From assembly GCF_001995095.2 (NCBI RefSeq), contig NZ_MTSD02000001.1, forward strand, positions 868,001 to 932,000: 64,000 bases of DNA, given 5' to 3'. Below are positions 34,418 to 58,391 of this stretch, piece by piece. Origin of the DNA: Oceanospirillum linum (GTDB taxonomy: Bacteria > Pseudomonadota > Gammaproteobacteria > Pseudomonadales > Halomonadaceae). Position 1 is the stretch's first letter; each line of letters starts with the position of its first letter. Below the pieces are notes generated by a model that made no database searches, was not told the origin of the DNA, and worked only from the letters and a program-made list of their open reading frames with translations. The position numbers and the translations under genes are program-made.

Positions 34418-34444
34418 TTAAGTTTATTAAAAACAAGCCGATAT
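34418..34444 (+). promoter_or_regulatory. Sigma-28 (FliA) promoter of flagellin
   Basis: TTAAGTTT (34418-34425), exactly 11 bases, GCCGATAT (34437-34444). The consensus is TAAAGTTT-N11-GCCGATAA; seven of eight bases match in each element. It lies about 78 bases before the flagellin ATG. Confidence 0.9.
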
Positions 34445-34521: not shown

Positions 34522-35718
34522 ATGGCCCTGTTTGTAAACACTAACATCGCCGCTTTAAGTGGCCAGAAGCATCTGTCTAACGTTGTTTCGCGCATAAACA
34601 GCTCTTATGAAAAGTTATCTTCCGGCAGCCGTATCAATAGCGCCAAAGATGACGCTGCAGGTCTACAGATATCCAATCGTCTGGAAACCCAAATTACAGG
34701 TCTGAATCAGGCAACCCGGAATGCCAATGATGCGATCTCCATTGCGCAGATTGCAGAAGGTGCCATGGGAGAGATTACCAATAATTTTCAAAGGGTCCGT
34801 CAGCTGGCTGTCCAGGGGGGTAACCGTACGCTCTCTTCGGATGATCGTATTTCCCTCGGCCAGGAATTTGGAGAACTACTCACCACGAATGACGAGATCG
34901 CTGAGCGTACGTCCTTTGGTAAGATTAAGCTGCTGAATAGTGAATCCCCTACTTCAGGTTTTCAGATTCAGACAGGGGCAAATGCAGGCGAGCAGAGTGA
35001 AATTACTACAGGTAACGCAACCCTTTCTGCACTTTTCGGAAAAATCCTTGAAAATGAGGGTGTTGGTGATCAGGTTTTTTCTGCCATGTCCAATACTAAC
35101 CTTGATGACTACGGAACCTTAGGCAAAGTGGTTGCCGCCTATATCGGCACAGGTAACGCCTCAACGGTGGATAACGCAGTGCTGGAGCTTTTCGGAGCTA
35201 ATGCTGGTATTAGTGCCGTTAAAAACCTGGGTGAGAAGGCCGTAGGGACGGTTCAGTTCAATGTTGAAAATTTCACAAAAATTTTAACGACCGAGTTACC
35301 GGACAACTCTGTCGGGGCCGCCATTCTGGATAATGCAGATCTGGATTGGGCAACGCTACTTCCGTCAGGCACACTGAACGAGGCCAGCATTGTTGCACGG
35401 GGCTTTACCGGCGATGAGATCAAGAGTCTTCACGGGTTTGCCACCGATACCCTTCTCGATTCCATGTCAGGTATGATCACACAGATTGGCCGCCAGCGCT
35501 CTAAATTAGGTGCAGAACAGAATGGCATCACCTCTCTGATCCGCAGTAACAATACGATGGCCATGAATGTCGCAGCATCCAGATCCCAGATAACAGACAC
35601 TGATTTTGCTTACGAGACGGCGGAACTCACCCGTAACCAGATTATTCAGCAAGCATCATCGACTATTCTCTCCCAGACAAACCAGTTACCGCAGATTGCA
35701 CTGTCGCTTCTGCGTTAA
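34522..35718 (+). CDS. fliC: Flagellin
   Basis: 398 residues. The conserved N-terminal D0/D1 helices (MALFVNTNIAALSGQKHLSN, SSGSRINSAKDDAAGLQISNR) and C-terminal D1/D0 helices (NVAASRSQITDTDFAYETAELTRNQI, then QIALSLLR) form the filament core. The central 140-300 region is variable and is the surface-exposed part. A start at 34522 follows AAGGATGTC. It is an orphan: no flaG, fliD, fliS or basal-body genes are next to it. It is driven by a sigma-28 promoter and ends in a terminator that overlaps the convergent merR gene. It may be one of several flagellins. Confidence 0.96.
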   Translation: MALFVNTNIAALSGQKHLSNVVSRINSSYEKLSSGSRINSAKDDAAGLQISNRLETQITGLNQATRNANDAISIAQIAEGAMGEITNNFQRVRQLAVQGGNRTLSSDDRISLGQEFGELLTTNDEIAERTSFGKIKLLNSESPTSGFQIQTGANAGEQSEITTGNATLSALFGKILENEGVGDQVFSAMSNTNLDDYGTLGKVVAAYIGTGNASTVDNAVLELFGANAGISAVKNLGEKAVGTVQFNVENFTKILTTELPDNSVGAAILDNADLDWATLLPSGTLNEASIVARGFTGDEIKSLHGFATDTLLDSMSGMITQIGRQRSKLGAEQNGITSLIRSNNTMAMNVAASRSQITDTDFAYETAELTRNQIIQQASSTILSQTNQLPQIALSLLR

Positions 35719-56075: not shown

Positions 56076-56102
56076 TAAATTTTCACAGCCAATAGCCGAT
56101 AT
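56076..56102 (+). promoter_or_regulatory. Sigma-28 (FliA) promoter upstream of the unknown gene at 56212
   Basis: TAAATTTT (56076-56083), exactly 11 bases, GCCGATAT (56095-56102); consensus TAAAGTTT-N11-GCCGATAA, seven of eight matches in each element. The -10 is identical to that of the flagellin promoter in this window. About 110 bases before the ATG at 56212. Confidence 0.8.
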
Positions 56103-56211
56103 CATTTTCAGTTCACATTTTATTTATACCAGCTAATCTTAATAAGCAAAATGTGATAGGGATAGCATCACAGATTTGTCGAATCTGTCATTACCACAAG
56201 GAAGTCAGACC

Positions 56212-58149
56212 ATGTTGAATACCAGCCATTATTTCGGCCGTTTTTTTAACACCTCAAACACCGCCACGACCGGAACGCAAAACCCCTCATCACCTTCTGA
56301 GTCTGTTCAACAGGCAGTACAGAGCGCCCGAGAAAACACCAAAGTACAAGTCCGGGAACTCGGTATTGAAGATGGTGCCAAGTTAGTGCCTATTGAACAG
56401 GCAACCTATAACGACCTTTTTCATGGCGAACAGAAAGTCAAAGCCGATGCCTTACTGGCGCGACTATCACCGGAACAACGGGACGTCATAATCAGTAATA
56501 TCCGTGATTACGAGGACTTACTGAAAGGGGATGATATTTTCCAGTTGGCGGAAAATCTCAGCGACGAAGAGCTGTCCCAGTTCACCGATATTATGATTGC
56601 CATGCAATCGGAGGGTCACTATGGTTATCTCTATCCAAAAAGCTATGATCTTCAGAATCTTATCCACATTCGGGATGTAATGCAGACTCTGGCTGACAGC
56701 GATCCAGCACTGCGTCAACAGATTCTCGACCAAGCCCATGCCTATGCTGAGCAGGTGCAGCCCTACACAGAACAGGTTCAACCAAGAGAAAAGCCGGACA
56801 CCTACAGCCGAAAAGAACTGTTTCGCCTACCCCAAAACAAAAACAGCTCAATAGATAACCTGAGCACATTTCTGAATGCCCTGCAAAACACCAAAGACCA
56901 TCAGAGCCTGATGAACAATCTGGACAGTGTTGACGAGACGCAAAAAATCCCCTTAATGCAGGTTTATATTCTGGATGAAGAGTTAGGGGTACGCAGCTAC
57001 GAAATGCTGAAAAACAAAGCGTTCTCACCGGAAGCAAAAGAGGGATTACTGCAATTTATTGCTGAGACCGCTGATAAAACCAGGCACATGCTTGACCTAA
57101 AAATAAAAGCCGATAACAACAGCAACCTGAATGACGGCACAGCAGCCAACGTGGCTTGGCTGGATAATCACAGCTACTCCATTGGACGAGATATGGTTAA
57201 AGATACGCTGGACCTGCTGGATAACTATGAATTCAGCGATGAGCAGTTGTTGAATATGACCGGCACGCTAAACAATCTGGACCGTAGTAACCAACGCGCT
57301 TATCTGGAAATTACCGTGCAGGGTATGGAACACCTGTTTGGCAGTGATTATCTCGAACCGCTTGATCTGACAGAACACAGCGATGCTTTGGCTGCTATTG
57401 ATGCGGTAAGAAACAACGCAGAGGCCCGAGACCTAGTTTTTATGTCCCGAATGGGCGATCTCTCTCGGCCAGCCGGAAAAACAAGTGATGCCATGTACTT
57501 CCAGAAAGAAAAAGGAGCTGATCCCTACAAAGATATGGCAGAAACAGCGGAGGTACTGGTCGCCAATGCCTGGATAGGGCAGCGTAAACTGGACTCGGAT
57601 ATCTGGCCACCTAAAAATGACGAGTATGAAATCCCGCCATTAAATCAAGATACACTGAATATGGTACGCCAGCTTAATCTCTTATCCGCCAAAGAGCGCG
57701 ACCTTAGTGTGGACCGTCTGTATGCTTTTGGTGATCTGACCCGAGGCGCGCTGGATGTGCGCCAGCACGGCGTGCAAACCTTATTCAGGTCAGAGAGCTG
57801 CATACAGAAAAGGGCCACTAGAGCGGCCCTTTTTTCTATCTGGTGGTTACTGTCAAATTCCATTTTTTATCCGGCAACCTTCTCTTCGCTGTTAAATTCG
57901 ATCATCAGATCACTACCCAGTGCCTCAATGGCTTCTTCCACCTGGGGCAGAGTCACACTGCCGGGCACCGTCAGAACCATATCAGCCTTAAACAACATCT
58001 CCGAGCTCATCGGTGCAGGCTCGCAACAGGTATCTAACTCTTTAACGTTCACCTGCAGACGGCTCAAAACCTGTGACACCTCTTTCACAATACCCGGCTT
58101 ATCGTTACCCACCACAGACAGCGAAACAGCAGAACCTGAAATCACATGA
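56212..58149 (+). CDS. Large unrecognised helical protein under a sigma-28 promoter; 3' end apparently lost
   Basis: The ATG at 56212 has AAGGAAG nine bases upstream. The frame is 645 residues, but only about the first 530 (to near 57795) look native. Beyond that it reads through a terminator hairpin and then, antisense, through about half of gcvR, so the original stop seems lost by deletion or frameshift. The native part is soluble, mostly alpha-helical and acidic, with no signal peptide. It has recurring units such as LSPEQRDVIISNI, LSDEELSQFTDIMIAM and FSDEQLLNMTGTLNNL, and a short repeat EQVQP. No family recognised. The FliA-type promoter suggests a flagellum- or chemotaxis-related role. 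Confidence 0.55.
   Translation: MLNTSHYFGRFFNTSNTATTGTQNPSSPSESVQQAVQSARENTKVQVRELGIEDGAKLVPIEQATYNDLFHGEQKVKADALLARLSPEQRDVIISNIRDYEDLLKGDDIFQLAENLSDEELSQFTDIMIAMQSEGHYGYLYPKSYDLQNLIHIRDVMQTLADSDPALRQQILDQAHAYAEQVQPYTEQVQPREKPDTYSRKELFRLPQNKNSSIDNLSTFLNALQNTKDHQSLMNNLDSVDETQKIPLMQVYILDEELGVRSYEMLKNKAFSPEAKEGLLQFIAETADKTRHMLDLKIKADNNSNLNDGTAANVAWLDNHSYSIGRDMVKDTLDLLDNYEFSDEQLLNMTGTLNNLDRSNQRAYLEITVQGMEHLFGSDYLEPLDLTEHSDALAAIDAVRNNAEARDLVFMSRMGDLSRPAGKTSDAMYFQKEKGADPYKDMAETAEVLVANAWIGQRKLDSDIWPPKNDEYEIPPLNQDTLNMVRQLNLLSAKERDLSVDRLYAFGDLTRGALDVRQHGVQTLFRSESCIQKRATRAALFSIWWLLSNSIFYPATFSSLLNSIIRSLPSASMASSTWGRVTLPGTVRTISALNNISELIGAGSQQVSNSLTFTCRRLKTCDTSFTIPGLSLPTTDSETAEPEIT
57808..57835. terminator. 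Terminator hairpin downstream of gcvR
   Basis: AAAAGGGCC (57808-57816) pairs with GGCCCTTTT (57825-57833). T-run of six on the plus strand and TTTT on the minus strand. It can end gcvR transcripts (minus) and marks where the plus-strand gene should have ended. Confidence 0.8.
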
Positions 58150-58391
58150 CTGCCGGCCTTAGCGGCCGTAACCGTCAGTCCAAAATGTTCCAAAGCGACC
58201 AAGTCAGCGACCAGGGCATCCGCCTGATCATCGGCTACCGCAACGGTCAGTATACCGGCAAACTTATCCGCCAGATGGGACATACGGCTTTCCAGCCAGT
58301 TACCATGGTGCTGAGCGATCGTTTCAGAAACTTTTTCCACAAGACCGGGCTTGTCATCACCGATCAGGGTTAATACCAGTTGTTGTGACAT
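57867..58391 (-). CDS. gcvR: GcvR-like ACT-domain protein
   Basis: 174 residues with two ACT domains: about 5-75 (LVLTLIGDDKPGLVEKVSETIAQHHGNWLESRMSHLADKFAGIL) and about 88-165 (AVSLSVVGNDKPGIVKEVSQVL). In E. coli GcvR binds GcvA to repress the glycine-cleavage operon; similar proteins here may act on other partners. It overlaps, on the opposite strand, the 3' run-off part of the unknown gene. It is a genuine gene: uniform ACT sequence and intact start. Confidence 0.88.
   Translation of the reverse strand: MSQQLVLTLIGDDKPGLVEKVSETIAQHHGNWLESRMSHLADKFAGILTVAVADDQADALVADLVALEHFGLTVTAAKAGSHVISGSAVSLSVVGNDKPGIVKEVSQVLSRLQVNVKELDTCCEPAPMSSEMLFKADMVLTVPGSVTLPQVEEAIEALGSDLMIEFNSEEKVAG

Follow-up and report, generated by a model that had tools for sequence, protein, structure and literature searches.

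A gene of Oceanospirillum linum that is preceded by a conserved FliA (sigma-28) promoter box probably encodes a protein of the FliA-controlled class that leaves the cell through the flagellar type III apparatus and works like the Fed and FspA proteins of Campylobacter, a reading to which we attach a probability of about 0.55. The gene lies in a window of 64,000 nucleotides, meaning the whole stretch of DNA analysed here. It comes from a contig of 1.13 Mb, and the draft genome amounts to 3.78 Mb in 285 contigs. The family to which the gene belongs has a conserved promoter box, nearly no cysteine, a characteristic N-terminal composition, low dN/dS and a history of lateral exchange of the coding sequence; from this we infer transcription by FliA, export, and a target outside the cell, such as a host surface, a competitor, a grazer or a phage. 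The narrowing to flagellar type III export in particular is suggested by the composition of the protein and by its N-terminus.

The gene and its 3' end

Translation likely starts at the ATG at 56212, which is common to O. maris, and the mechanically delimited open reading frame begins at a TTG at 56176. The conserved part extends approximately over 56212-57774 (Table 1), because the nearest homologue, the second of two tandem copies in O. maris (hereafter Om1 and Om2), stops after residue 521. The original prediction had placed the end of the gene at about 57800, which did not hold, since no stop occurs near there and the frame runs for 124 residues beyond residue 521, through a terminator-like hairpin (57812-57829, followed by a T-run) and opposite the coding strand of a gcvR-like gene, to reach 58149. 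The window allele may be defective, because no in-frame stop precedes this hairpin; alternatively, the tail may be translated or the draft may be wrong at the 3' end. The gene adjoins ahpF and is not inside a flagellar cluster.

The gcvR-like gene (ACT domain; window 57867-58391) lies between the gene under study and a LysR gene and has no match in the O. maris genome. Its product is 93% identical to that of the genome G004, where the gap of about 380 bases between ahpF and gcvR holds no copy of the family gene.

Table 1. Features of the window that are discussed in the text (position 1 is the first base of the window).
Feature	Position	Strand	Remarks
FliA (sigma-28) promoter box, TAAATTTT-N11-GCCGATAT	56076..56102	+	14/16 against the consensus, spacing 11
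FliA box of the window's flagellin (gene 34522-35718), for comparison	34418..34444	+	TTAAGTTT-N11-GCCGATAT, 14/16
Ribosome-binding-like AAGGAAG	56198..56204	+	7 bases before the ATG; read from the sequence
Conserved coding part, residues 1-521	56212..57774	+	open frame formally continues to 58149 (645 residues)
Proposed export signal, residues 1-64, S/T/N/Q-rich start	56212..56403	+	inferred from composition; pLDDT <50 throughout
Stretch exchanged with the O. maris lineage	56193..57746	+	identity with Om2 of 94.3%, not extending into either flank
Terminator-like hairpin and T-run	57812..57835	.	from the sequence; between the gene and the convergent gcvR-like gene, inside the open frame

Distribution and sequence of the protein family

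Clear relatives turned up in two genera only: Oceanospirillum (4 of 6 genomes, that of the window included) and a genus from another taxonomic family of the same order (g36; 7 of 48 genomes). Within the taxonomic family of the window, members occur in 4 of 275 genomes. Samples of 390 genomes of the order, 369 of the class and 398 of the phylum gave nothing beyond the two genera except weak, chance-like matches. The tandem copies of O. maris belong to strain DSM 6286; within g36, the genome G218 has two copies, G238 has an intact copy plus two remnants, a single copy is present in each of G773, G772 and G764, and the copies of G766 and G760 are split in two frames. The remnants of G238 (C32:251775-251918 and 259379-259753; L042 and L040) lie near its intact copy and look like signs of repeated gain and decay. 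In the alignment of the family, the ten other rows share 20-93% identity with the window protein.

Matches in eleven genomes of other genera (G344, G505, G621, G134, G221, G281, G316, G385, G840, G945 and G1013; E 0.0007-0.01) were taken as chance; the two of these that were inspected by eye resembled glutamine synthetase (L030 of G505) or fell within an open reading frame resembling a sugar-phosphate enzyme (G344). A mobile origin was also discarded, since no relatives were present in 72,556 plasmid records searched with the window protein, in 50,697 phage records searched with a g36 protein, or in viral contigs searched with a profile.

The view that the protein resembles no known family was sustained for Pfam, NCBIfam, PHROGs and PDB sequences, which gave nothing convincing for the family; the best matches were weak and were taken as chance (PHROG E 0.061; PDB E 0.41; Pfam E 0.0081, to CdvA in 2 of 11 members). 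Flagellar Pfam domains were absent from the window protein at E up to 10 and from 11 members at E up to 1, including the Flagellin_N/C, FliD, FlgK and FlaG domains, and by domain content the protein is not a flagellin or a hook-associated protein. Among the titles and abstract openings listed in a literature search, none concerned this protein. The helical nature of the protein, also proposed originally, was recovered in low-confidence models only (mean pLDDT of 32.5 for a single sequence and 41.9 for three sequences, both poor). As for the recurring LSxEQ units, LSxEQ-like motifs do occur four times, at residues 85, 116, 341 and 491, and an internal repeat found no support, the best profile self-match covering 69 columns with an hhalign probability of 4.3%.

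The FliA-type promoter

The box reads TAAATTTT CACAGCCAATA GCCGATAT and sits upstream of the ATG at 56212; the FliA consensus, TAAAGTTT/GCCGATAA with a spacing of 11, is the yardstick for all box scores given here. The predicted match was confirmed and lies above chance in shuffles and in a reversed control: the pattern originally proposed has one match in the window and none in 100 shuffles, and a scan of the 3.78-Mb draft genome with the strict pattern TAAANNTT-N11-GCCGATA yields four matches, with none for the reversed control. The three strict sites other than that of our gene are located upstream of LPP20/FlgT-domain genes (presumably flgO/P/T), of flgM and of a flagellin of a tandem array. 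Within the window, the only other site scoring at least 13/16 at spacing 11 is the box of the flagellin gene (34418), and both promoters have the -10 element GCCGATAT, in agreement with the earlier claim that it is shared. That flagellin (identified by Pfam) is solitary, has its own FliA box and lies far from the array, with a MATE-family gene and an MCP gene as neighbours. The array itself consists of eight flagellin-like genes in a row, followed by FlaG and FliD (L063:10391-19793 and L064:29-1255, at about 760-771 kb of C109); the starts of the eight are nearly identical, and one of them was profile-tested.

The strict pattern passes over true-looking sites, such as those of the window's flagellin and of FlaG, and a looser test was also applied (at least 14/16, spacing 11, at most 250 bases upstream of the start). 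Among 140 control ORFs of the same genome (ATG-started, at least 120 residues, drawn from 184 kb), three were positive, namely two flagellins and FlaG, while no positives were obtained among 70 controls from related genomes (some entered twice, two of the six stretches overlapping by 8 kb) or in 3000 simulated regions. Pooled, the controls therefore gave a box in 3 of 210 regions, all of them flagellar.

The presumed leader (window 56113-56187) contains the inverted repeats CACATTTT...AAAATGTG and ACAGATT...AATCTGT, and its hairpins showed no extra stability when compared to shuffles (z-score -0.27; 79 of 200 shuffles fold equally well).

The original prediction named conservation of the promoter with orthologues as its own test, and a box proved to be kept even in another taxonomic family. 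A 14/16 box with the exact spacing of 11, at most 250 bases upstream, precedes 10 of the 13 family copies, the two G238 remnants not being counted: those of the window, Om1, G218 (both, a and b), G238 (intact copy, G238a), G773, G772, G764, G766 and G760. The remaining three have no good box, their best scores at spacing 11 being 9 (Om2), 9 (G005) and 10 (G001); G001 retains GCCGATAT and a fitting -35 element is absent. Om2 starts 216 bases behind Om1 with a terminator-like hairpin between them, and it might be read from the Om1 promoter, the hairpin notwithstanding. In the g36 copies, the box begins 59-71 bases before the ATG. Local alignment scores separate the ten boxed upstream regions into at least five groups (window; Om1; G218a and G238a; G218b, G773, G760, G772 and G764; G766), with scores of at most 15 between groups and of 18-111 within them. 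Since the upstream surroundings do not align across groups, the box has been kept or regained while its surroundings diverged. Besides, the variants GCCGCTAA and GCCGTTAA of the g36 copies resemble the variation found before the flagellins of that genus (GCCGTTAA, GACGATAA, GTCGATAA), where a site of at least 12/16 was present in 13 of the 28 flagellin-domain loci examined; loci matching later domains or lying inside arrays were often without a site. The occurrence of the box in 10 of 13 copies, together with the position of the gene at one of the four strict sites of its genome, makes late flagellum-linked regulation well supported. The predicted late flagellar or motility link thus stands as one of regulation, and nothing in the present analysis points to chemotaxis.

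Features suggestive of export

One cysteine was counted in 6162 letters (one of them a stop sign) across 11 homologues, which are not independent cases because the proteins are related; in this count the window row ends at residue 521, excluding a tail with three cysteines, and split copies and remnants are left out. For comparison, the cysteine content is 0.96% in ORFs of at least 300 residues of the same genome outside the stretches L063 and L064. In the same genome, 73 ORFs reaching 300 residues were compared (our gene counted with its tail). Cysteine is missing from 21 of them, and 14 of these 21 are flagellar axial proteins: nine flagellins (seven named by matching N-termini only), FliD, FlgK, FlgL, FlgE and FlgJ. 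The other seven are not type III axial proteins (FlgI, SecD, SecF, an M48 peptidase, a sigma factor and two that were not profile-tested), and the absence of cysteine is therefore no proof of export.

The first 45 residues after the initial methionine of the window protein have an S/T/N/Q fraction of 0.53, which exceeds all 132 controls. Of the 13 members nine were tested in this way, and six lie above every control; G001 and G766 are matched by one control each and G218a (0.36) by 12 of the 132. The eleven controls ranking highest are all flagellar axial proteins. Additionally, no membrane helix was detected in the six members tested, which have no 19-residue stretch with a mean hydropathy above 1.09. 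Judged by composition and hydropathy, the S/T/N/Q-rich start, free of hydrophobic stretches, may represent an N-terminal type III signal, with G218a not exceptional. Taken together, the near-absence of cysteine and the S/T/N/Q-rich start are indirect signs that agree with the promoter.

Lateral exchange and selection

The window copy and Om2 are separated by a dS of 0.205, which is far below the values of neighbouring genes in the same two genomes (ahpC 1.15, putA 1.52, ahpF 2.86; the LysR and GGDEF genes were too saturated to compute), and the coding sequence was therefore exchanged between the lineages, recently. The exchange with Om2, in the form that this copy now has in O. maris, did not include the promoter or the 3' flank: Om2, the exchange partner, lacks a FliA box. 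The dN/dS ratio ranges from 0.10 to 0.28 in the six family pairs computed and is 0.16 for the window copy and Om2. A protein that is selected for, yet duplicated, swapped and often lost, would fit an outward-facing role.

The tandem copies of O. maris (L002:4213-7566) appear to be mosaics that are alike in the core and differ towards the ends: blocks within residues 65-278 of Om1 are 77-93% alike with Om2, and the flanking blocks are 33-57% alike, except for one of 83%.

Proposed function and alternative explanations

FlgM leaves the cell once the hook is complete. With the hook complete and FlgM gone, FliA would transcribe the gene alongside flagellin, FlaG and flgM. The product, probably helical, cysteine-free and of some 500-600 residues, would not be a known part of the flagellum; its S/T/N/Q-rich N-terminus would direct it through the flagellar type III apparatus, and the exported protein would act outside the cell, either released or bound to the filament. 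Not all observations favour this reading, as Om2, G005 and G001 have no good box, the N-terminus of G218a is unexceptional, cysteine-free proteins that are not axial exist, nothing resembling a chaperone gene was noticed among the neighbours, the window allele reaches the hairpin without a stop, and the copies of G760 and G766 are split. These last irregularities raise the question of whether the window allele is itself defective, the exchange or a later 3' change having removed the stop from a gene heading to loss, which we consider somewhat short of an even chance and which is compatible with any of the functions discussed here. The missing stop, the end of the similarity with Om2 at 57746, the split copies or remnants in G760, G766 and G238 and the absence of a copy from G004 agree with decay; however, the other 521 codons are open, their dN/dS against Om2 is low, the tail may be translated and the assembly is a draft.

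FliA boxes drive cytoplasmic proteins too, and a FliA-controlled cytoplasmic protein that tunes the motor, the export gate or chemotaxis would explain why neither a Sec signal nor a membrane helix is present. We hold this to be doubtful, considering the near-absence of cysteine and the axial-protein-like N-terminus, the tandem copies, mosaicism and lateral exchange, which would be unusual for a core motor part, and the absence of the gene from most genomes searched (e.g., 41 of 48 in g36). The same signs of export also speak for an accessory structural protein of the filament (a coat, cap-associated or length-control protein) that is exported and kept on the flagellum, and FlaG, which is described as a filament-length factor (PMC12445086), likewise has a FliA box and lacks cysteine; nevertheless, the family has no flagellin, FliD, FlgK or FlaG domain and its presence is patchy within genera, making such a role less probable still. 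That the box is coincidental and the gene unrelated to the flagellum could be argued from the three copies without a good box and from the location beside ahpF, outside a flagellar cluster, but a box was recovered in 10 of 13 copies, whereas only 3 of 210 controls (each of them flagellar) and none of 3000 simulations have one, which renders this very improbable.

Within the preferred reading of a FliA-class exported protein, we tentatively raise a wider possibility, which we would not yet expect to be correct: marine free-living bacteria may use their flagella to bring to the cell exterior a family of mosaic proteins that is exchanged rapidly and serves as an effector or decoy aimed at hosts, grazers, phages or competitors, a family with no described counterpart. 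Copies in tandem, gene conversion and the swapping of entire coding sequences among species, downstream of FliA promoters already in place, would all be part of that arrangement.

Relation to known systems and implications

In Campylobacter jejuni, FspA has a sigma-28 promoter and is described as small, and the Feds (flagellar co-expressed determinants) are described as co-expressed with flagella and dispensable for motility (PMC9856085); FedB is reported to exit via the flagellar apparatus and to disappear from the supernatant when fliJ is mutated (PMC12445086). The window gene resembles these in its FliA box and export-like features, but it belongs to another bacterial group and encodes about 520 residues in contrast to the small FspA. 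It may work like Fed/FspA proteins but is not filed here as a member. The phospholipase YplA of Yersinia enterocolitica is cited as a protein that is not flagellar yet takes the flagellar type III route out of the cell (PMC8306008), with an export signal placed within its first 20 residues (PMC2764114). The same route is predicted for the window protein, although YplA is an enzyme of known activity, whereas the window protein has no Pfam domain. Flagellin, FlaG and the hook-associated proteins share with the family the lack of cysteine and the S/T/N/Q-rich start, and flagellin and FlaG also the FliA box, but none of their domains is present in the family.

If this reading is true, these proteins would constitute a new family of flagellum-exported proteins. 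The examples of non-flagellar export by the flagellum given in the parts of the cited papers considered here all come from animal-associated bacteria, and the present family occurs in marine genera. Besides, the signature described (a FliA box, no cysteine, an S/T/N/Q-rich start and no flagellar domain) could be used in the search for further cases. A review asks whether non-flagellar export is common among flagellated bacteria (PMC8306008), and a family of which O. maris DSM 6286, a type strain that can be cultured, carries two copies would make this question directly testable.
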